A stretch of 64,000 bases of DNA, taken from NCBI RefSeq assembly GCF_030345095.1, contig NZ_CP128360.1, forward strand, positions 4,216,001 through 4,280,000, read 5' to 3'. A program made the position numbers and the translations under genes. Source of the stretch: Solwaraspora sp. WMMA2056. GTDB lineage: Bacteria; Actinomycetota; Actinomycetes; Mycobacteriales; Micromonosporaceae. The notes under the pieces were generated by a model. It was not told the origin of the DNA. It searched no databases and was given only the letters and a program-made list of their open reading frames with translations. Below, piece by piece: positions 10,618 through 29,846 of the stretch. The first letter of the stretch is position 1. Every line of letters begins with the position of its first letter.

Positions 10618-12114
10618 TCAGCGCAGGGCGGGCAGGTGCCGTCGGGACCCTCCGGCGGGAGCGTCCCCGCCGGTGCGGGCCGGGCGCGGCCGGTGATCGA
10701 CCGGCCCGGTGCCGACCCGGACGTGCGTCGGCCGCCGTCGCGGTGTCGGCGCCCCGGTGTCGTCGTCGGTCCGCCGGTCGGTCGGCAGGTGCAGTAGCAC
10801 CGCCGCGACGGCGAGCCAGAACACGTACGGATAGGTCTGCCCGGTGCCGAACATGGCCGATTCGGTGATCTGGATCAGTAGTCCGGTGACGATGAGCCAG
10901 ATCAGGCCCGAGTTGATCCGGGTGACCGGGGCCCGTACGGCGGCGCGGAACACGGCCAGCAGCAGCATCAGCAGCGGTACGACCGCGACCAGACCCAGCT
11001 CCAGCAGCAGCTGCAGGTAACTGTTGTGCACGACGCCGATGTCCAGTCCGAGGAACCTCTCGTAGCTGGTCAGCTGGGCCAGGTGGTCGCGGGAGGCGTA
11101 CCCGAACCCCAGCGCCGGCCGATTCTGCCACCACAGGTCGACGGTCGCCTGCCACATGGCGATCCGGCCGTTGGACAGATCCTCCTGGGCGGTGAACCGC
11201 GCGACGATCTGCTGCATCCACGGCGTGGCGGCCACGGCGGGCAGCAGGTTGAACAGGTAGGCGGTGAGCAGCCCGGCGGCCGCGGCGGTGACCAGTCGCG
11301 TCACCGGGCCGATACCGTGGCGCAGCACCACCCAGAGGGCCCCGACGGCGACGGCGACCAGCGCGGTGCGGGACTGGGACAGCACGAGCGCGCCCGCGGC
11401 CGGCACCATGCCGAGCAGGTCGACCGGCCGGCGGGTCTGCCGGTGGACCGCCCAGCCGAGCGGGATCGTCAACGCGCAGACCATGCCGAGCATGTTGGGG
11501 TTGTTGTACAGCCCCTGGAACCGTTGGCTGCCGGACAGCGCGGCCGCCAACGTGCCGTCGGTGAGCCCGTAGCCGAGACTGACCACGGCGGACAGGCTCA
11601 GCACCAGGTAGATGACGCGCAGGTCGGCCAGAATGACCGTGCGGTCGGGCCAGCGGCGACGGATCAGCAGGTGCACGAGCGCGGCCAGCAGCAGCAGCGC
11701 GACGCCGCGTTGGAAGGTCTCCAGCGCGACGATCGACCAGGTCGCGCTCACCGTGGCGAGCCCGGCGACCAGCCACAGGGCGCCGGCGAACGTCGCGGTC
11801 CACGGGGTGAACCGGGCCGACGGCGGGCGTCGTACGCACAGCAGCCAGACGACCAGCATGCCGACTGCGACGTACCGTGGGTAGAAGCTGGCGTCGACGA
11901 GCGCCTGTACGTCCGACGAGGCGGCGACCAGCAGGCCTATCGTCAGGGCCAGCATCGCCCGCCAGCCGTCCATCCGGCAGGCGCAGCCGACCAGCAGCAG
12001 CAGTGCCGCCACGGCACACGCGATCAACAGGTCGTGCATGGCGAGAATGATCGTGACCACCACGAGGCACGCCGCGCCGACGAGACTCGCCAGTTGGCTC
12101 ACACGGTCCACCAC
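10618..12114 (-). CDS. O-antigen ligase/polymerase family membrane protein (Wzy/WaaL-like)
   Basis: A 498-residue polytopic membrane protein with about 11-12 hydrophobic helices. The Wzy_C signatures are present: SGSQRFQGLYNNPNMLGM (large-loop region), LSQSRTALVA, RIAMWQATVDLW with GFGY, and HNSYLQLLLELG. Family members polymerise or ligate undecaprenyl-linked glycans on the outer face of the membrane. GTG at 12114 (or 12111) follows AAGGACGACAA; an upstream in-frame ATG at 12228 adds an arginine-rich stretch without family support. The C-terminal 60 residues are a hydrophilic Arg/Thr-rich tail. Only 58 bp separate it from the reductase gene upstream, so it is probably co-transcribed with that gene and the dehydratase. 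Confidence 0.85.
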   Translation of the reverse strand: MVDRVSQLASLVGAACLVVVTIILAMHDLLIACAVAALLLLVGCACRMDGWRAMLALTIGLLVAASSDVQALVDASFYPRYVAVGMLVVWLLCVRRPPSARFTPWTATFAGALWLVAGLATVSATWSIVALETFQRGVALLLLAALVHLLIRRRWPDRTVILADLRVIYLVLSLSAVVSLGYGLTDGTLAAALSGSQRFQGLYNNPNMLGMVCALTIPLGWAVHRQTRRPVDLLGMVPAAGALVLSQSRTALVAVAVGALWVVLRHGIGPVTRLVTAAAAGLLTAYLFNLLPAVAATPWMQQIVARFTAQEDLSNGRIAMWQATVDLWWQNRPALGFGYASRDHLAQLTSYERFLGLDIGVVHNSYLQLLLELGLVAVVPLLMLLLAVFRAAVRAPVTRINSGLIWLIVTGLLIQITESAMFGTGQTYPYVFWLAVAAVLLHLPTDRRTDDDTGAPTPRRRPTHVRVGTGPVDHRPRPARTGGDAPAGGSRRHLPALR

Positions 12115-12172
12115 TTGTCGTCCTTCGGCTTGCGGCCGGCCGGCTCGTCGCCAGCGGTCTGTCGGTGCGTGG

Positions 12173-13165
12173 TCAGGCCGGGATCTGCTGCCTGTCCGTC
12201 GGCAGCGGTGCGCCGGACCAGCGGGCACGGGCGGCGTGCAGCGTCCGGATCATGTCCGGCCAGTCCGGCGGGCGGTATCCGGTCGCCTCGGCCAGCGCGT
12301 CGGCCCGCATCGACCGGTCGCAGACGAACTCGGTCTCCGCCACCAGGTCGCCCTGCCATTCGTAGACGTCGGCGACCAGTCGCAGCAGGTCGTACTTGGT
12401 GATCGGCGTGGCGGCCACGTGGTAGAGCCCGGTCAGGTCCGGGCGGGGCAGCACGACGGTACGCAGCAGCCGGGCGAGCTCGACCGTCGTCACTCCGCTG
12501 TAGACCGCCCGGGTGTAGCCACGCACCTGACCGGACTGGCCGAGAAACCAGTCCACCAGCGACCGTCGGGTGGTCAGTTCGTGACCGACGATCGAGGTAC
12601 GCAGCGTGAGCGCGCTGCCGGTGGTCACTTCGCCGAGCAGCTTCGACCGGCCGTACAGGTCCGGCGGGTCCGGCAGGTCGTGCTCGACGTAGGCGCCCCG
12701 GCTGCCGGAGAAGACGCAGTCGGTGCTGACCTGGATCAGCCGGCCGCCGTGTCGGGCAGCGGCGTCGGCGAGCAGGTGCGGCAGCAGCGCGTTGAGGGTC
12801 ACGGTGGGGACCGCGTCCTGCACGTCCGGCCGTTGTTTGATCACGCCGACGCAGTTGACCACGACGTCCGGCCGGAGCTCGTCGATGACGGCGCGGACCT
12901 GGTCGAACCGGGTGGCGTCGACGCCGCTGGTGATCCGGTGCAGCAGTTCGGTCGGGTAGTGGTGCTCCCGACCGTCGAGGCTCCTGACGACCCCGTGCAC
13001 CTCCAGCTCGGGTGCGTCGGCGAGTTCACGCAGCAGCGTGTGGCCGAGCATCCCGGTGGCGCCGACGATCAGTACCCGACGGACGGCCGGTGCGGTGGCG
13101 GTCGCCACGGTACGTCGCCGGGGGACCAGGTCGGGTCGGGTCCGGTCGCCGCCCGCCCCGCTCAC
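12173..13165 (-). CDS. RmlD/WbvR-like sugar-nucleotide reductase (SDR)
   Basis: A 330-residue protein (311 from the alternative GTG at 13108). The Rossmann motif is IVGATGMLGHTLL, followed by VVNCVGVIKQRP, QVSTDCVFSGSRG and the catalytic LYGRSK Tyr/Lys. This pattern fits the reductase that follows the dehydratase in UDP-2-acetamido-2,6-dideoxy-L-hexose synthesis (WbvR, and the reductase part of CapF/FnlB). The C-terminal cupin of CapF/FnlB, which carries the 3-epimerase activity, is missing. I therefore favour a WbvR-like role leading to UDP-L-QuiNAc or UDP-L-RhaNAc over UDP-L-FucNAc (inference). GTG at 13165 overlaps the dehydratase stop as GTGA. Confidence 0.85.
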   Translation of the reverse strand: MSGAGGDRTRPDLVPRRRTVATATAPAVRRVLIVGATGMLGHTLLRELADAPELEVHGVVRSLDGREHHYPTELLHRITSGVDATRFDQVRAVIDELRPDVVVNCVGVIKQRPDVQDAVPTVTLNALLPHLLADAAARHGGRLIQVSTDCVFSGSRGAYVEHDLPDPPDLYGRSKLLGEVTTGSALTLRTSIVGHELTTRRSLVDWFLGQSGQVRGYTRAVYSGVTTVELARLLRTVVLPRPDLTGLYHVAATPITKYDLLRLVADVYEWQGDLVAETEFVCDRSMRADALAEATGYRPPDWPDMIRTLHAARARWSGAPLPTDRQQIPA

Positions 13166-14208
13166 GCGGGCACCGCTGTCAGGGCGAGGGCGTCGACCTG
13201 CGCCCGGACCTCCGGCAGGGTCAACAGCAGGGACTCGATCTCCGGTACGGTCAACCGCCGGGCGTTGTGTGAGTTGTAGTCGGCCAGGCCGCCGCTGTCG
13301 AGGTCGCCCTCGTCGACGTACAGGGCGTAGTTGAGGTCGCGGCTGTCGACCGGCACCCGCAGGAAGTCGCCCAGGTCCTCGGCGTGGGACAGCTCCTCGC
13401 GACTGGCGAGTGTCTCGTAGAGCTTCTCGCCGTGCCGGATGCCGAGGACGTGGAACTTCGCCGGCACGCCGAACAGGTTGCAGAGCGCCTCGGCCAGGTC
13501 GCCGATCGTGCAGGCGTCCGCCTTGCGGATGAAGACGTCGCCCGACTGGCCGTGCCGGAACGCGTGTTCGACCAGCTCCACCGACTGCGGCAGGGACATC
13601 AGGAACCGGGTCATCGTCGGCTCGGTCACCGTCGGCAGCCCGCCCCGGCGGATCTGGTCGATGAACAGTGGGATGACCGAACCACGGGAGTACATGACGT
13701 TGCCGTAGCGCACGCAGCAGACCCGGGTCCGGGCGGCCGGGCTGTTGCGGCTGTGTGCCTGGGCGACCTTTTCCATGATCGCTTTGGTCATGCCCATCGC
13801 GTTGACCGGGTAGACGGCCTTGTCCGTGCTCAGCAGCACCAACGCCTCGACGCCGACCCGCTCGCAGGCCTCGACGACGTGGGCGCTGCCCAGGACGTTG
13901 GTGCGCACCGCCTCGAGGGGGAAGAACTCGCAGGAGGGCACCTGTTTGAGCGCGGCGGCGTGGAAGACGAACTCGGTGCCCCGGGCGGCCTTGAGTACGC
14001 TGTCGTAGTCCCGTACGTCGCCGACGTAGTAGCGGATCCGCTCGTCGCCGAGCCGATGGCGCATTGCGTCCTGCTTGGACTCGTCCCGGCTGAGCACCCG
14101 GATCTCGGCGGCGCCCGCGTCGAGCAGCCGGGAGACCATAATCTGCCCGAACGATCCGGTGCCTCCGGTGATCAGGAAGCGTCTGTCCGATAGTGAGGGA
14201 AGCACCAC
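13162..14208 (-). CDS. UDP-GlcNAc 4,6-dehydratase/5-epimerase, CapE/FlaA1 family
   Basis: A 348-residue polysaccharide biosynthesis dehydratase. It shows ITGGTGSFG at the N terminus, HAAALKQVPSCEFFPLEAV, LLSTDKAVYPVNAMGMTK (the variant active site with Met where other SDRs have Tyr, a hallmark of inverting CapE/FlaA1 enzymes), RYGNVMYSRGSVIPLF and GIRHGEKLYETL. It should convert UDP-GlcNAc to UDP-4-keto-6-deoxy sugar with C5 inversion. It is the first gene of a minus-strand operon (dehydratase, reductase, Wzy-like protein). The divergent gene is the WbuB-like transferase that would use the product. Confidence 0.92.
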   Translation of the reverse strand: MVLPSLSDRRFLITGGTGSFGQIMVSRLLDAGAAEIRVLSRDESKQDAMRHRLGDERIRYYVGDVRDYDSVLKAARGTEFVFHAAALKQVPSCEFFPLEAVRTNVLGSAHVVEACERVGVEALVLLSTDKAVYPVNAMGMTKAIMEKVAQAHSRNSPAARTRVCCVRYGNVMYSRGSVIPLFIDQIRRGGLPTVTEPTMTRFLMSLPQSVELVEHAFRHGQSGDVFIRKADACTIGDLAEALCNLFGVPAKFHVLGIRHGEKLYETLASREELSHAEDLGDFLRVPVDSRDLNYALYVDEGDLDSGGLADYNSHNARRLTVPEIESLLLTLPEVRAQVDALALTAVPA

Positions 14209-18224: not shown

Positions 18225-19709
18225 TAGGGCAGCCGTACTTCGTGACCTGACCGGTGCGGTGGGGTGTGGACGGACAGGGTGTGCGGCGACGGAGACGGCC
18301 ACCGCATGATCGTCCGGTGTTGTGTGGACAACGAAGGATCACGAGGTGGCCGCAGCGGCCATGGTAGAGGCCGGTCGGGTCGAGGAGAACCTCGCCACGC
18401 TGATGGGAGACCTCGGCGCGTGTTTCGCCCGGGTCGAACCACTACGGCAGGCCGGCAAGTACGTCCGTGGCCTGATCGCCGACCTGCCACGCAAGAACTG
18501 CTGGACCCTCGCCGAACACGCCGGGGACACCACCCCCGACCGGATGCAACGACTCCTCGAACGCGCGGTCTGGGACACCGACAAGGCGATGGGCGTGGTC
18601 CGTGACTTCGCCGTGGCACGCCTGGCCGACCCGGACGGCGACAACACGCTGATCTTCGACGAGAGCGGCGTGGAGAAGACCGGCACCGGCACGTGCGGCG
18701 TGACCCGCCAGTACGTGGGCTGCGCGGGAAAGGTCACCAACGCCGTCAACCTGGTCAACGCCACCTACGCCACCCGCGCCGGCCACGCCCTGGTCGGCTC
18801 CCGCCTGTGGATCCCCGCCGCCCACCTCGACGACGACGCCCGCCGCGCCGCCACCGGCGTCCCCGCCGACACCGAGTTCGCGACCAAACCCCGACTCGCC
18901 ACCGACCTGCTCACCGAGACACTCGACGCCGGCGTACCCGTGCGGTGGTGCACCGCCGACGCCGTCTACGGCCGGGACCGGCGACTACGCGACACCTGCG
19001 AGACCCGGGGAATCGGCTACAGCCTCGGCGTGCCGTGCTCGTTCCGGATCACCCTGCCCGGCTGGAAGACGAAGATCCGCGCCGACACCGCTGCCACCAC
19101 CCTGACCACCGACACCGCCTGGCAGACCATGTCCTGCGGGGCGGGTTCCAAAGGCGACCGCTGGTACGCGTGGGCGTGGATCGCCACCGCCAGCCCCCGC
19201 CACTACCTGCTCGTACGCCGGAGCCTGGCTGACCCCGACGACCTGGCCTACTTCTACTGCTGGATACCGGAGCGCCTTCCGGCGACCCTGACCGCGTTGG
19301 TGAGGGTGACCGGCCGGCGGTGGACGATCGAGGAGGACCACGGCTTCGGCAAGGACCACTTCGGGTTCGACCAGTTCCAGAACCGCCTCCACACCCCGAT
19401 CATGCGGCACATAGTGCTGGTCATGGCCGCGCTCGCCGTCTGCGCGGTCACCGCCGCCGACGCCGCGGCCGGGACCACGCCACCACCCCGACCCACCCAC
19501 CCCAGCGAACCACCACCGGCCGACCTCGGACTCGCCCGGCTGACCGTGGTCGAGATCAAACGGCTGTACAACCTCGCGACCAGAGCCTGGCACAGCCTCG
19601 AACACCATCTCCGCTGGTCCTGGTGGCGCCGCCGCCATCAAGCCCGCGCCCGCTGGTACCACTACCGATCCAGACTCACATGATCAAGTCACGAAGTACG
19701 GCTGCCCTA
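18225..19709. mobile_element. IS701-family insertion sequence, complete
   Basis: A 1485-bp element with perfect 22-bp terminal inverted repeats (18225-18246, beginning TAGGGCAGCC, and 19688-19709). It is flanked by a 4-bp direct repeat GTAA (18221-18224 and 19710-19713), the duplication size known for IS701. One transposase gene fills it. Perfect ends and an intact transposase imply a recent insertion. Confidence 0.97.
18346..19683 (+). CDS. IS701-family DDE transposase
   Basis: A 445-residue transposase (453 if GTG 18322 is used; GTG 18346 has AAGGATCACGAG just before it). Family landmarks are YVRGLIADLPRKNCW, LIFDESGVEKTG (first catalytic Asp), GSRLWIP, CTADAVYGRD (second Asp), and RRWTIEEDHGFGKDHFGFDQ (Glu region), then a basic C-terminal tail. 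No frameshift or stop is seen, so the element should be active. It lies entirely within the inverted repeats and interrupts tnpB in the same orientation. Confidence 0.93.
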   Translation: MAAAAMVEAGRVEENLATLMGDLGACFARVEPLRQAGKYVRGLIADLPRKNCWTLAEHAGDTTPDRMQRLLERAVWDTDKAMGVVRDFAVARLADPDGDNTLIFDESGVEKTGTGTCGVTRQYVGCAGKVTNAVNLVNATYATRAGHALVGSRLWIPAAHLDDDARRAATGVPADTEFATKPRLATDLLTETLDAGVPVRWCTADAVYGRDRRLRDTCETRGIGYSLGVPCSFRITLPGWKTKIRADTAATTLTTDTAWQTMSCGAGSKGDRWYAWAWIATASPRHYLLVRRSLADPDDLAYFYCWIPERLPATLTALVRVTGRRWTIEEDHGFGKDHFGFDQFQNRLHTPIMRHIVLVMAALAVCAVTAADAAAGTTPPPRPTHPSEPPPADLGLARLTVVEIKRLYNLATRAWHSLEHHLRWSWWRRRHQARARWYHYRSRLT

Positions 19710-20479
19710 GTAAGGACAACCGGCAGGCGATCCGGTTCACGCAGAACTCCCGGTTCAAGGTCTGTGACAACGGCCGCCTGCGGCTGCCGAAGATCGGCGA
19801 CGTCGCGGTGCGCTGGTCGCGCGGCCTGCCGTCGGATCCCACCTCGGTCACCGTGGTCAAGGACACGGCAGGCCGGTACTTCGCCTCGTTCGTCGTGACC
19901 ATCGGCGAGGACGAGACGCTGCCGCCGGTCGACTCCGAGATCGGCATCGATCTGGGCCTGACCCACTTCGCGGTCATGTCCGACGGCACGAAGGTGACCG
20001 CACCGAAGTTCCTGCGCCGCGCGGCCCGCAAGCTCAAGCGGTTGCAGCAGGCACTCTCACGCAAGCAGCGGGGCAGCAACCGCCGCAGGAAAGCCGTGAT
20101 CGAGGTGGCCCGCGCTCACGCGCGGGTAGCCGACGCCCGGCGGGACTGGCAGCACAAGCTGTCCACAGCGATCATCCGCGACAACCAAGCGGTGTACGTC
20201 GAGGACCTGTGCGTTGTTGGTCTCGGCCGGACTCGGCTGGCGAAGTCCGTGCACGATGCGGGCTGGGCCGCCTTCACCGGCATGCTGGAGTACAAGGCGC
20301 AGCGGTACGGGCGCGTGTTCGCCCGGGTGGACCGGTGGCTCCCGTCCACCCGGATGTGCTGCGACTGCGGCCGGATCAACGAGAAGATCGCGTTGCACGT
20401 CCGGGAGTGGGACTGCCCGTGTGGCAGTCACCACGACCGGGACATCAACGCCGCCATCAACATCAAGGCCGCCGGACAG

Positions 20480-20623
20480 GCGGACTTCAACGACCGTCGA
20501 GCGCACGTAAGACCGGGACTTGTCCCGGCGGCGCGCAGTGAAGCGGTAACCCACCCGGACGCTGCGTGTTCCACGCGCAGCGTGGAGGGAATCTCCGTCC
20601 TCCAGGGCGGAGAGGATGTCAAC
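20480..20623 (+). ncRNA. candidate TnpB omega/re-RNA scaffold at the element right end
   Basis: In IS605 elements the guide RNA overlaps the tnpB 3' end and the right end, and the flanking DNA supplies the guide. Here the region from the zinc ribbon to the right end contains compensable stems, including the right-end hairpin at 20594-20613. The predicted guide would be the ywiC-like sequence from 20624 onward. This is inferred from family knowledge; the 5' boundary is a guess. Confidence 0.35.
20594..20613. repeat. IS605 right-end hairpin
   Basis: CTCCGTCC and GGGCGGAG pair over 8 bp (one G-T wobble) around a TCCA loop, 10 bp before the right junction. It is the transposase-binding palindrome of the right end and probably the terminal stem of the guide RNA scaffold. 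Confidence 0.75.
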
Positions 20624-21241
20624 TGACCTCCTACTACGTCCTGCAGGCCGTCAAGAGCGCCGGCCACGTCGGTTCGCCGCCCAGATCCGGCTGTACGCCC
20701 TGATCACCGTGCCACTGGCGGCGACGGTGCTGGTCGCCCGGCCGGCGGTGCTCTGGTACGCCCCGGTCTACGCCGCCCTGCTGCTGGTCAACGGCGCCTA
20801 TGCCGGCCGTCGCGCCGAACGCGCCCTGGCCAACGATCTCGCCTCGGTGCTGCAGAGCTGCCTGCTGGTCCTCGTGGTGGCCACCGTCGCCGCCGTACCA
20901 CCGGTCCGGGTCCTGCCCGCCTTCGTGGCCCTGCTGCTGTACCTGACCGGGACGGTCCTGTTCGTCAAGACCATGATCCGCAACCGGGACGACGCCCGGT
21001 ACCGACACCTGTCGGTCGGCTACCATCTCGCCGCGCTCGCCGCGGCCGGGTGGATCGACGCGCGGCTCATCCCGGTTTTCCTGGTCCTGCTGATCCGCGC
21101 CTGGCTGCTGCCGTCCTGGCGGCTGCGGCCCGCGCAGGTCGGCGTCGTCGAGATCGTCTGCTCGGTGCTGATTCTCGTCGTCGTACCGGTCGTGTCGTGA
21201 CCGGAGCGTCGCGACCACATCGATCACCCGGAAGGTGTCCC

Positions 21242-25985: not shown

Positions 25986-26500
25986 GGAGTGTGTGATGGA
26001 GCCGTTCCGTATCGAGATTCCGCAGGAGAGTCTGGATGATCTGGCTGCGCGGTTGGCGGGGGTGCGGTGGCCGGTGCAGCCGGTGGGTGCGGGGTGGGAG
26101 CGGGGGGTGCCGGTGGGGTATCTGCGGGATTTGGTGGGGTATTGGCGGTCGGGGTACGACTGGCGTGCGGCGGAGGCGCGGTTGAACAAGTTTCCGCAGT
26201 TCGTGGCGGAGGTTGATGGGGCGCGGGTGCATTTTTTGCATGTGCGGTCGCCGGAGCCGGGTGCGGTGCCGTTGGTGGTGACGCATGGGTGGCCGGGGTC
26301 GTTTGTGGAGTTTTTGGAGGTGGTGGGTCCGTTGGCGGATCCGCGGGGGTTCGGTGGGGATCCGGGGGTGGCGTTCGATGTGGTGGTGCCGACGATTCCG
26401 GGGTTCGGGTTTTCGGGTCCGGTGTCGGGTACGGGGTGGACGTTGCCGCGGGTGGCGGGGGTGTGGGCGGAGTTGATGCGGCGGCTGGGCTACGACCGCT
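25986..26500. repeat. 515-bp perfect repeat, copy A
   Basis: This segment is base-for-base identical to 28676-29190 (offset 2690). It starts at the ribosome site of the epoxide hydrolase and ends 17 bases before the nucleophile codon. The flanks on both sides differ. Confidence 0.97.
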
Positions 26501-27144
26501 ACGCCCTGCACGGTGGCGACTTCGGCTCGTTGATCTCGCTGGAGGTCGCCCGCCAGCACCCGGCGCGGGTGCTGGGCGTGCACGTCAACTTCCTGGTCAC
26601 CGGGGTGGACACGGCCGCCGACCCGGACCTCAGCGACGCCGAGCGGGGCCGGCTGGCGACGATGGCCCGGTTCCACACCGACCCGGCCGGCTACGTCAAG
26701 GTGCAGGCGACCCGGCCGCACACCCTGGCCTTCGGCCTGACCGATTCGCCGGTCGGGCAGCTGGCCTGGATCGTGGAGAAGTTCCGCGAGTGGACCGACC
26801 CGACGTCGGCGCTGCCCGACGCGGTCGACCGGGACACGCTGCTGACCAACGTGATGCTGTACTGGCTGACCGGTACGGCCGGGTCGTCGGCGGCGCTCTA
26901 CTACGAGATCGGCGCGCAGTTGCGCGCCGGGGCCCCGCCGGTGGCACCCTGGCCGACCGAGGTGCCGGTGGCGGTGGCGGTGTTCCCGCACGACTTCCTG
27001 CTCCCGGTGCGCCGGCAGGCGATGGCCGAGTTGCCGACCATCACCCGCTGGACCGAGTTCGCCCACGGTGGGCATTTCCCGGCGCTGGAGCAGCCGGAGC
27101 TGCTGGTCACGGATCTGCGGGCGTTCTTCGCCGACCGACGGTGA
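25996..27144 (+). CDS. alpha/beta-hydrolase epoxide hydrolase (copy 1)
   Basis: A 382-residue epoxide hydrolase. The N-terminal EHN domain (about 1-105: PFRIEIPQESLDDLAARL, RSGYDWR) is followed by an alpha/beta-hydrolase core. HGWPGS (His97) forms the oxyanion region, Asp175 in HGGDFGS is the nucleophile, and His360 in HGGHFPALE is the base. It adds water to an epoxide to give a diol. Bases up to 26500 are identical to the second copy; downstream the two differ. The identical part avoids C at third positions (valine is GTG or GTT, never GTC), unlike the 3' part, so the gene looks like a mosaic. The stop is 6 bp from the convergent FAD enzyme gene. Confidence 0.93.
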   Translation: MEPFRIEIPQESLDDLAARLAGVRWPVQPVGAGWERGVPVGYLRDLVGYWRSGYDWRAAEARLNKFPQFVAEVDGARVHFLHVRSPEPGAVPLVVTHGWPGSFVEFLEVVGPLADPRGFGGDPGVAFDVVVPTIPGFGFSGPVSGTGWTLPRVAGVWAELMRRLGYDRYALHGGDFGSLISLEVARQHPARVLGVHVNFLVTGVDTAADPDLSDAERGRLATMARFHTDPAGYVKVQATRPHTLAFGLTDSPVGQLAWIVEKFREWTDPTSALPDAVDRDTLLTNVMLYWLTGTAGSSAALYYEIGAQLRAGAPPVAPWPTEVPVAVAVFPHDFLLPVRRQAMAELPTITRWTEFAHGGHFPALEQPELLVTDLRAFFADRR

Positions 27145-27150
27145 GTCGGC

Positions 27151-28482
27151 TCATTCTCCGGCGGCGGGCCGCCGGCGCAGGACCCGTCGGACGATGTTGG
27201 GCCGCATCAGCGCGCTCAGCGGGTCGACCAGACCGGCGGCGCGCAGGAATGCGCCGGACAGCGCCGGGTCGTGTACGGCGGCCGCCTGCAGCCGCGGCAC
27301 GTACGAGTTGCCGATGCGGACCTTCAGCGTCCGCCGTCCCTGTACCCCGGCGAAACCGAGGTCCGGCCCGGCCGACATGTCCCAGGGCGCGTCGATGGCC
27401 CGGGCGACGTCGCGGAAGTAGCCGTCGGCGGCTGGTGCGCCCTGCTGCAGGTGTCGGCCGAGGATCTGGGCCTGTAGCGCGGCGGCCGTCATGCCCTGGC
27501 CGTAGACCGGGTTGAAGGTGCAGACCGCGTCCCCGAGCATCAGCAGGCCCTCCGGGAAGCTGTCCATGCGTTCGTAGCGGCGGCGAACGCTCGCCGGGAA
27601 GTGGAACGACTTCGGCTCGCTCATCGGCTCGGCGTCGCGCAGCGCCCGGTAGATCTCCGGGACCGGCAACGACCGGACATAGGCCAGCAGCCCGTCCCGG
27701 TCGGTCGGTGGGCGGTCGCCGAGCAGACCGGTCAGCGATATCGAGTAGCGGTCCGGCAGACGGGCGAAGATCGCCCCACGGGGCATCTGTGGGGTGGCCA
27801 CCGGAATGATCGCGATCTGTTCACCGATCGGGTCGAACGGCAGTGGCGGGCGGTAGTGGCAGGTGGTGTAGGTCAGATCCATCTTGACCTTCTCCTCCGC
27901 GACCTGCGGATAGCCCAGCTCGACCAGCCAGCGGTGGGTCCGCGAGCCCCGGCCGGTCGCGTCGACCAGCAGGTCCGCGTCGAGGACCTCGGCCTGCCCG
28001 TCGGGGTCGCGCAGGTGCACCCCGGTGACCCGGCGGCGGTCCGCCGTGGTGGCCAGGTGCATGACGTCGCACCTGTCGCGGAAGGTGACGTTGCCCAGGT
28101 CCTTGACACGCTGGCGGATCCGGGCCTCCAGCAGGGGGCGCCCGGCCGCCACACAGATCAGCCCGGTCTCGGTCTTCCGGATCATCTCGCCGTTGAAGTA
28201 CCAGCTCAAACTGGTGCCGAAGTCTCCCACCGGCACGCCAATGCCGACCAGTTCGTCGGTGAGCCCGGGAAACAGTTCCTCGAGGATCCGCTGGCCACGG
28301 GCCAGGAGCGCGTGAATGTGATGGCCCTGTGGCACGGCCCGGCGGGGGTCGTCCCGCTCGGTCAACTGGTCCCGGTCGATCACCGTGACCTCACGGTAGG
28401 CCGGGGCGAGGACCCGGGCGGCCAGACAACCGGCAATGCTGCCACCGAGCACGACGGCCCGGTCGCCGACAATGTGGGCCAT
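27151..28482 (-). CDS. FAD-dependent monooxygenase/epoxidase
   Basis: A 443-residue class A-type flavoprotein. The FAD-binding dinucleotide motif is VVLGGSIAGCLAARVL at residues 9-24, a DG-type region is seen in DLLVDATGRGSRTHRWL, and the GD motif is LLMLGDAVCTFNPVYGQGM near residue 300. The sequence fits the group that includes polyether olefin epoxidases (MonCI, Lsd18) and related hydroxylases. With two epoxide hydrolases next to it, an epoxidase role is attractive but inferred. A 203-bp divergent spacer separates it from the second epoxide hydrolase. Confidence 0.88.
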   Translation of the reverse strand: MAHIVGDRAVVLGGSIAGCLAARVLAPAYREVTVIDRDQLTERDDPRRAVPQGHHIHALLARGQRILEELFPGLTDELVGIGVPVGDFGTSLSWYFNGEMIRKTETGLICVAAGRPLLEARIRQRVKDLGNVTFRDRCDVMHLATTADRRRVTGVHLRDPDGQAEVLDADLLVDATGRGSRTHRWLVELGYPQVAEEKVKMDLTYTTCHYRPPLPFDPIGEQIAIIPVATPQMPRGAIFARLPDRYSISLTGLLGDRPPTDRDGLLAYVRSLPVPEIYRALRDAEPMSEPKSFHFPASVRRRYERMDSFPEGLLMLGDAVCTFNPVYGQGMTAAALQAQILGRHLQQGAPAADGYFRDVARAIDAPWDMSAGPDLGFAGVQGRRTLKVRIGNSYVPRLQAAAVHDPALSGAFLRAAGLVDPLSALMRPNIVRRVLRRRPAAGE

Positions 28483-28508
28483 GAGTTGACTCCTCGATGG
28501 GAGGTGGC

Positions 28509-28520
28509 ATTCGAACGAAT
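28509..28520. promoter_or_regulatory. inverted repeat ATTCG-AA-CGAAT in a divergent promoter
   Basis: Five-bp arms around AA lie 26 bp upstream of the FAD monooxygenase start, in an AT-rich divergent spacer (28483-28685). The size suits a TetR- or MarR-type operator. No regulator gene of the cassette is nearby. Confidence 0.35.
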
Positions 28521-28675
28521 ATCATGCTAACGCTGTTCTTCGTCAACATTTTCTTCCGGACTGCTCGGTTTCATCCGGACTCCTCAGGCCATCTACCCGT
28601 GCTATCTGTCAGTGGCTACTATGAATGGCGGCCCGTGCCGAGATTCTGACTTTCGTGGCCTCCGACAAGTATTGA

Positions 28676-29190
28676 GGAGTGTGTGATGGAGCCGTTCCGT
28701 ATCGAGATTCCGCAGGAGAGTCTGGATGATCTGGCTGCGCGGTTGGCGGGGGTGCGGTGGCCGGTGCAGCCGGTGGGTGCGGGGTGGGAGCGGGGGGTGC
28801 CGGTGGGGTATCTGCGGGATTTGGTGGGGTATTGGCGGTCGGGGTACGACTGGCGTGCGGCGGAGGCGCGGTTGAACAAGTTTCCGCAGTTCGTGGCGGA
28901 GGTTGATGGGGCGCGGGTGCATTTTTTGCATGTGCGGTCGCCGGAGCCGGGTGCGGTGCCGTTGGTGGTGACGCATGGGTGGCCGGGGTCGTTTGTGGAG
29001 TTTTTGGAGGTGGTGGGTCCGTTGGCGGATCCGCGGGGGTTCGGTGGGGATCCGGGGGTGGCGTTCGATGTGGTGGTGCCGACGATTCCGGGGTTCGGGT
29101 TTTCGGGTCCGGTGTCGGGTACGGGGTGGACGTTGCCGCGGGTGGCGGGGGTGTGGGCGGAGTTGATGCGGCGGCTGGGCTACGACCGCT
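28676..29190. repeat. 515-bp perfect repeat, copy B
   Basis: Identical to 25986-26500, covering the ribosome site, the EHN domain and half of the alpha/beta core of the second epoxide hydrolase. Copies lie in the same orientation 2690 bp apart, a direct repeat that could recombine and delete the FAD gene between them. Confidence 0.97.
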
Positions 29191-29846
29191 TCGTCGTGCA
29201 GGGCGGTGACCTCGGTGCCTGGATCAGCCTGACCCTCGCCGGCATGTTTCCCGACAAGGTCCTCGGCGCTCATGTGAACTTCCTGGTCACCCCGCCGAGC
29301 GGAGACCCGGCCGACCTCGCCGGCCTGTCCGGGACCGAGTTGTCGCGGCTGGGGTTGCTGACCACCTACGCCAACGAGCTGTCGGGCTACATGAAACTGC
29401 AGACCACCCGGCCGCAGACCCTCGCGTACAGCTTGACGGACTCGCCGGTCGGCCAGCTGGCCTGGATCGTGGAGAAGTTCAAGGACTGGACCGACTCGGC
29501 ATCGGTGCCGGAGGACGCGGTCGACCGGGACACCCTGCTGACCAACGTGATGCTCTACTGGCTGACCGGCACCGGTGCGACCTCTGCGCACTTCTACTTC
29601 GACAACGCCGACGTGATGCCGACCGCACCCACCCCGCCGCCCCCGCCCCCGCCGCTGCAGGTGCCTCTGGGGGTGGCGGTCTACCCGCGCGATCCCGCCC
29701 AGCCGATCAGGCGGTTCGCGGACCAGGGGTTCCCGAACATCGTCCACTGGGCGGAGTACGACCGAGGGGGGCATTTCCCGGCCCTGGAGGTGCCGGACCT
29801 GTTCGTCGAGGACCTGCGGCAGTTCGCCCGCGCCCTGCCGCGCTGA
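28686..29846 (+). CDS. alpha/beta-hydrolase epoxide hydrolase (copy 2)
   Basis: A 386-residue paralogue of the upstream epoxide hydrolase. Residues 1-168 are identical, then the sequence diverges. The nucleophile is Asp175 in QGGDLGA, and the base is His363 in RGGHFPALE. It keeps DSPVGQLAWIVEKF and LLTNVMLYWLTGT. A run of eight prolines (about residues 318-325, after TAPT) sits in the cap-to-core region where copy 1 has none. Differences around the nucleophile elbow (GAW in place of GSL) suggest altered substrate or regioselectivity. It ends before a 62-bp perfect hairpin. Confidence 0.93.
   Translation: MEPFRIEIPQESLDDLAARLAGVRWPVQPVGAGWERGVPVGYLRDLVGYWRSGYDWRAAEARLNKFPQFVAEVDGARVHFLHVRSPEPGAVPLVVTHGWPGSFVEFLEVVGPLADPRGFGGDPGVAFDVVVPTIPGFGFSGPVSGTGWTLPRVAGVWAELMRRLGYDRFVVQGGDLGAWISLTLAGMFPDKVLGAHVNFLVTPPSGDPADLAGLSGTELSRLGLLTTYANELSGYMKLQTTRPQTLAYSLTDSPVGQLAWIVEKFKDWTDSASVPEDAVDRDTLLTNVMLYWLTGTGATSAHFYFDNADVMPTAPTPPPPPPPLQVPLGVAVYPRDPAQPIRRFADQGFPNIVHWAEYDRGGHFPALEVPDLFVEDLRQFARALPR

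Follow-up and report, generated by a model that had tools for sequence, protein, structure and literature searches.

A strand-skewed 515-bp repeat shared by two epoxide hydrolase genes of Solwaraspora sp. WMMA2056

The closest described systems to the element reported here are the genetic repeats of intense nucleotide skews (GRINS). In the passages of two papers that set them out, they are defined by repetition, by GC and TA skew, and by a link to gene conversion within polyketide synthase (PKS) genes (PMC10394414, PMC9899208). Their copies are near-identical within one cluster, often above 90%, with a limit of above 80% over at least 500 bp, and the GC and TA skews each have to lie above 25%, or above 0.15 in the other paper (PMC10394414, PMC9899208). 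Their typical length is given as 1 kb (PMC10394414), with a floor of 500 bp (PMC9899208). We analysed a stretch of 64,000 nucleotides from Solwaraspora sp. WMMA2056 (contig NZ_CP128360.1, positions 4,216,001 to 4,280,000), hereafter the window, in which a 515-bp segment covers the 5' halves of two paralogous epoxide hydrolase (EH) genes, EH1 and EH2. This segment is very probably a GRINS-like element, i.e., strand-skewed, recoded coding DNA that is repeated in two paralogues and has been homogenised by gene conversion.

The likeness to GRINS, as those passages delimit them, has three aspects: the two copies are near-identical (100% over 515 bp), the coding strand is skewed (+0.46 for GC and +0.46 for TA), and the segment recodes coding sequence in connection with gene conversion. 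We added a criterion of our own, which does not come from the GRINS papers, that the skew be confined to the repeat; the 3' halves of both genes have a skew of about zero, and the skewed codon style ends 13 nucleotides before the identity. The segment differs from GRINS in having two copies only and in that its protein sequence has shifted too. Another known process that leaves such a pattern is ectopic gene conversion between bacterial paralogues, which produces the same sharp-ended block of identity beside older, diverged sequence. Ectopic conversion as such does not predict an intense strand skew that matches the converted block. Our best reading is that a known kind of element, found so far mainly in the giant enzymes that make antibiotics, occurs here outside its usual home.

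How GRINS originate is, to our knowledge, unsettled, and the great size, high copy number, and repetitiveness of PKS genes make them ill suited to finding out. The present case involves two copies of 515 bp with sharply defined ends, in small enzymes of a single chain whose sequenced relatives lack the recoding. This brings the question within reach of a test, including whether recoding by itself makes conversion more frequent and at what price to the enzyme the residues have changed. A warning follows as well: paired genes in clusters of this sort can have a recent half in common, which masks their true ancestry. The abstract of the 2021 PNAS paper on GRINS reportedly mentions many gene families. 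Our literature search found no paper that pairs GRINS with an epoxide hydrolase, which carries little weight, the original GRINS paper lying outside the scope of that search.

The repeat and its strand skew

Direct comparison of the two copies, at 25986-26500 and 28676-29190 on the plus strand, gave 515 matches in 515 bases, as claimed by an earlier note on this DNA that was made from the sequence alone. The identity gains no further base upstream of 25986/28676, and the first mismatch appears at 26501/29191. Both copies have the same orientation, at an offset of 2,690 bp, and each starts 10 bases upstream of the ATG (25996 in EH1 and 28686 in EH2), thus including the ribosome site, and extends over codons 1-168. 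The codon of the nucleophile, Asp175, begins at 26518, 17 bases past the end of the repeat, again in agreement with the earlier note. That note had also suggested looking for a third, donor copy elsewhere; none was found in the genome (7.01 Mb, one contig).

Beyond the break the proteins do differ clearly (53% identity). Codons for the same residue show synonymous differences in 30 of 113 cases after the break versus 0 of 168 before it, which excludes chance as the cause of the identity, and fourfold sites differ at 21 of 73 positions in the 3' halves and at 0 of 105 in the 5' halves. With 0 differences in 515 bp, the copying is therefore recent. Both copies have unique, unlike flanks on each side, and both reading frames are intact across the breaks. 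The earlier note had left the choice between recent gene conversion and duplication. The former is favoured, because the lack of synonymous change in the 5' halves stands beside an older divergence of the 3' halves, and conversion appears to be what homogenised the pair. A duplication of the whole gene fits poorly with the 3' half of EH2, which belongs to a supported clade that excludes EH1, and its variant with a fast 3' divergence was rejected because synonymous sites differ in the 3' halves as well. Within codons 259-288 of the pair, 2 of 23 codons differ synonymously, a hint of an older conversion around this place. The geometry of the direct repeat could fit a deletion of the 3' part of EH1 together with the gene between the copies, which encodes a protein that resembles monooxygenases dependent on flavin adenine dinucleotide (FAD). 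As the earlier note stated, this gene lies between the copies; it occupies 27151-28482 on the minus strand.

The decisive feature, absent from the earlier note, is a strand skew that coincides with the repeat. The 3' halves of EH1 and EH2 are near zero (GC/TA skew of 0.01/0.10 and -0.06/0.04). Third codon positions of the shared segment contain 74% G, 18% T, 8% C, and 0% A, i.e., a GC skew of +0.81, against 43-48% C and 45-53% G in the two 3' halves, and this codon style is unlike that of the neighbouring genes. Its fourfold sites comprise 93 G, 10 T, 2 C, and 0 A, whereas three relatives have 46-54 C and 42-48 G, so the change was mainly from C to G. Simple deamination of cytosine or adenine as the sole origin of the skew was rejected on the same ground, the C-to-G change being dominant at fourfold sites.

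A scan of the window for joint skew (GC above 0.25 and TA above 0.2) identified the two repeats as the only positive runs, along with four negative runs of at most 180 nucleotides each. We extended the comparison to 864 kb of the same genome, made up of the window and 40 further stretches (6 around ketosynthase matches, 3 beside the window, and the rest spread along the chromosome); among 16,910 windows of 500 nucleotides, the two repeats rank first for skew. The coding strand of the segment has 27 runs of three or more G, a number that no more than 4 of 3,361 windows from the same genome reach on one strand, and the opposite strand has none. A maximum-likelihood change-point analysis of third-position composition placed the end of the skewed style after codon 164 in both genes, with a range of codons 159-164 in EH1 (26472-26487, plus strand) and 161-164 in EH2 (29168-29177, plus strand). 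The identity outlasts it by the same 13 nucleotides in both, and ends within an LGY.R stretch that the relatives conserve.

The recoding extends to the protein. The shared N-terminal half departs from a clear family majority at 23 sites, of which 17 changed toward G/T-rich codons, 3 away from them, and 3 neutrally. When the G/T content of codon positions 1 and 2 is scored, the net residue shift of this half is +14, and the maximum in 149 other genes is +5. The C-terminal halves have no such trend (9 up and 13 down in EH1, 10 up and 14 down in EH2). Because the residues of the shared half shifted too, beyond all 149 other genes, these results speak for recoding by a DNA-level process rather than by codon selection.

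Recoded genes in relatives and the association of repeats with skew

Among the 44 EH genes compared first, skewed 5' halves were present only in the window pair and in a pair from another genus of the family (genome G062), the other 40 lacking a recoded 5' half. A larger set of 153 EH genes, from relatives and a GTDB contig collection, gave the same two pairs and 149 genes without recoding. It includes genes with a single match that starts within the first 8 query residues and spans at least 300, those alike in bases 601-900 being counted once. The mean GC/TA skew of the 5' halves is -0.04/+0.04 across all 153 genes (standard deviation 0.08), compared with 0.45/0.46 for the window pair and with 0.26/0.36 and 0.23/0.31 for the G062 pair. 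The same filters leave out a frame-broken EH gene of genome G051 (L173 9976-11123), reported apart; its frame breaks near a run of G.

The two genes of G062 lie in opposite orientation and are 95% identical over 817 nucleotides, with a change-point at codon 214; homologous FAD and cytochrome P450 genes are found in the same locus, and no further close copy of the pair in the G062 genome. Since their DNA and the window segment share only about 74% identity, we take this pair to be a separate, independent event. Overall, two EH genes co-occur at 14 loci (13 and the window, L040 and L058 being counted as one place). A near-identical EH block is present in 2 of the 14, which are the two skewed pairs, and the other 12 have neither block nor skew (Fisher's exact p = 1/91). 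The earlier note had proposed that a fixed N-terminal half with two different catalytic halves could diversify the substrate range. We do not retain this idea, because conversion would have made the pair more alike and 12 of the 14 pairs have no near-identical block.

The association of repeats with skew was studied in a sample of 2.74 Mb in 157 stretches, comprising the window, the own-genome sample, and the loci of relatives (L178 was left out, as it shares its contig with L096). As the loci of relatives had been selected around EH genes, the sample is not random; no further overlap of over 1,500 bases at 97% identity was found among 119 stretches other than the window and those of its genome. 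The sample contains 11 loci with near-identical local repeats of at least 100 bp. Joint skew characterises seven of them: the two EH pairs, three glycosyltransferase pairs, a 266-bp repeat from the same genome as the window, and a short one in L209. Counted in windows of 150 nucleotides, 26 of the 52 repeated windows are skewed versus 311 of 18,148 others. Because these windows are not independent, we also ran a test by locus; with the window removed and the glycosyltransferase trio counted once, 4 of 8 repeat loci are skewed (simulated p 4.5e-6).

The glycosyltransferase pairs belong to family 2 (L186 by homology only) and lie in the FAD/EH loci of three relatives (L060 11839-14361, L185 14607-17113, and L186 16951-19001). 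They carry near-identical blocks, that of L060 being 100% identical over 299 bp, and their coding strand is rich in C and A, i.e., the sign of the skew is opposite to that of the EH case. The own-genome repeat, near C1:4082000, is an exact direct repeat of 266 bp (L195 11957-12222 and 12383-12648; GC/TA skew 0.38/0.20) within a PKS-like frame of 2566 amino acids that carries a ketosynthase match. Two further skewed stretches were observed in the same genome. One spans about 840 nucleotides at the 5' end of an unusually long gene, which might be RHS-like, although this is a guess (L226 5341-6180, C1:6655340-6656179); it has a GC skew of 0.26-0.41 and a mostly positive TA skew, and two paralogous places with 75% identity are weakly skewed. 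The other (L214 4501-5490, C1:4904500-4905489) is strongly skewed and has no near-identical partner in the genome.

We propose tentatively, and with more doubt than conviction, that a general process of recoding and copying, not bound to PKS genes, acts on paralogous tailoring genes of actinobacterial clusters, so that GRINS would be a mutational phenomenon independent of the gene family. If so, this process leaves one strand nearly free of C and A, alters the protein regardless of its function, and then homogenises paralogues. PKS genes would merely display GRINS most often, and the EH pairs of the window and of G062, together with the glycosyltransferase pairs of three relatives, would be examples elsewhere.

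Origin of the shared half

The C-terminal half of EH2 groups with L082, L015, L087, and L017 (69-75% identity) in a supported clade of 11 rows, and that of EH1 falls outside. At 7 positions with a residue characteristic of the EH2 group, the shared N-terminal half matches 6 times, and none of 147 other sequences exceeds 3. On these grounds, with which the more careful of two trees agrees without significance, EH2 is the likely donor and EH1 the likely recipient.

The most likely history of the pair is as follows. EH1, beside a P450 gene, and EH2, beside the FAD monooxygenase gene, coexisted as distinct genes, as their unlike 3' halves show. The 5' half of one of them, probably EH2, would have been recoded at the DNA level by replacement of C and A on the coding strand, mostly C by G at fourfold sites, pushing residues toward G/T-rich codons, with the result observed today. 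Recent homologous recombination would have copied the recoded half over the other gene in a one-way conversion, which would end in the loop before the nucleophile strand, where the native genes are still alike (LGYDR). The coding strand, rich in G runs, may promote strand exchange. Repeats and skew are associated in our sample; that the segment itself promotes gene conversion is a possibility that goes beyond this association.

The alternative that survives best, which we nevertheless regard as unlikely, is an ordinary recent conversion between paralogues, in which the donor gene merely happens to be skewed, with no relation to the repeat. It would accommodate the frequency of paralogous EH pairs within one locus (14 loci including the window), the unskewed near-identical repeats at 4 of 11 loci, and the existence of skewed runs without partners. 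Yet skew and identity end within 13 nucleotides of each other in both genes, near-identical blocks are confined, among EH pairs, to the two with skew, the other 12 having neither, and local repeats are strongly enriched for skew.

Insertion into both genes of a 5' half from a foreign gene with another codon usage is very improbable. It would account for a codon style unlike that of the neighbouring genes and for the lack of a near-identical homologue, the best DNA match in 354 genomes of the family being 77% identical, in a gene that is also skewed. However, the 80 best of 181 loci from the GTDB contig set reach at most 63% protein identity and include no donor. None turned up either in 394 genomes of the class, where a search for more recoded EH genes (E up to 1e-55) gave one further match, G766, which is unskewed. 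The shared half also carries residues of the EH2 clade, and we know of no genome whose usage has a third-position GC skew of +0.81 without A. An assembly artefact, in which one copy was filled with the sequence of the other, is even harder to credit: the identity is indeed perfect, but the genome is a single contig, both copies have unique, unlike flanks on both sides, both reading frames are intact across the breaks, and the pattern recurs in G062 at 95%, not 100%, identity. Just as implausible is translational selection of the codons in both genes (by expression tuning or 5' mRNA structure), which would suit an element that extends from the ribosome site across the 5' half, but the residues shifted too (17 to 3) with a net shift unmatched in 149 homologues, and codon selection alone would not yield 515 identical bp.

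We thus favour a GRINS-like element copied from EH2, and several observations weigh against it. The segment, at 515 bp, is about half the typical 1 kb given for GRINS and passes the 500 bp floor at its short end. GRINS are described, in the passages cited above, in the modules of assembly-line PKS, and the segment lies in two stand-alone EH genes; the nearest ketosynthase match begins about 54 kb past the end of the window. Four of the 11 local-repeat loci are unskewed (L130, L151, L213, and L224), and skewed runs without a near-identical partner occur in the own genome. In G051, an EH gene whose skew is strongest in the 5' half lacks a duplicate within its 20 kb locus. The residue trend of the G062 pair is weak (10 to 7 and 12 to 7), being equalled or exceeded by 7 and 1 of 149 genes, respectively. 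The G-quadruplex density of the segment is not unusual: it has one such motif, a count reached by 191 of 3,361 other windows. Regarding the donor, the careful tree places the shared half with the EH2 clade without significance (support 64/74), its position in a faster tree built on more rows is different and likewise unsupported, and the recoding lengthens the branch of this half. Finally, the 1.89 Mb surrounding EH genes contain 31 skewed runs, of which 3 fall in EH genes, a share so small that we rejected the idea of EH genes as a hotspot of skew.

The two enzymes and their neighbourhood

EH1 (25996-27144, plus strand, 382 amino acids), the probable recipient, and EH2 (28686-29846, plus strand, 386 amino acids), the probable donor according to its lineage-specific N-terminal columns, both have the features of EHN-type epoxide hydrolases, namely the EHN and alpha/beta hydrolase domains (PF06441 and PF00561), an Asp nucleophile, an HGWP motif, and a C-terminal GGH. 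The nucleophile is Asp175 in both, within GGDFGS in EH1 and GGDLGA in EH2, as the earlier note had it. Columns H97-S102, D175, and G358-F361 are invariant across 16 sequences. We take HGWPGS/HGWP to be the oxyanion motif, GGH to contain the distal catalytic histidine, and the Asp to be the nucleophile. Both enzymes belong over their full length to the same EHN-type (microsomal-like) family as PDB 4i19/4qa9 and as PDB 5f4z, the closest solved relative (622.6 bits over residues 1-384 of EH2 and 487.2 bits over residues 1-378 of EH1). The polyproline run reported in EH2 is real but ordinary for the lineage, 5f4z having a similar one.

The AlphaFold model of EH1 has a mean predicted local distance difference test score of 84.8 and a predicted template modelling score of 0.88, with junction blocks above 90. 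In this model, the end of the skewed style and the end of the identity both map to residues 164-168, a predicted loop that connects a helix to the strand 169-173 ahead of D175. The shared half would so provide the oxyanion motif along with the EHN lid and the first strands, and EH1 and EH2 would each keep their own nucleophile, cap, and histidine. Because the catalytic Asp, HGWPGS, and GGH are kept in both, EH1 and EH2 are probably both active tailoring enzymes with their own caps.

The FAD-dependent monooxygenase-like gene between the copies is divergent from EH2 and matches PF01494 over the cut-off, and PF01266 and PF00890 under theirs. A cytochrome P450 gene (24477-25721, minus strand, PF00067), whose start was placed from the reading frame, is divergent from EH1. 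The FAD gene adjoins EH genes in many relatives, and a P450 gene stands beside an EH gene in several. This adjacency suggests that EH1 and EH2 open epoxides made by the neighbouring FAD monooxygenase or P450.

Two other places of the window are worth recording. A frame of 413 amino acids at 12038-13279 has no Pfam match and a third-position GC of 0.76, low for this genome, and may not be a gene. At 18322-20626, a DDE_5 transposase gene precedes an IS605 OrfB gene, which encodes a Cas12f1-like TNB domain.

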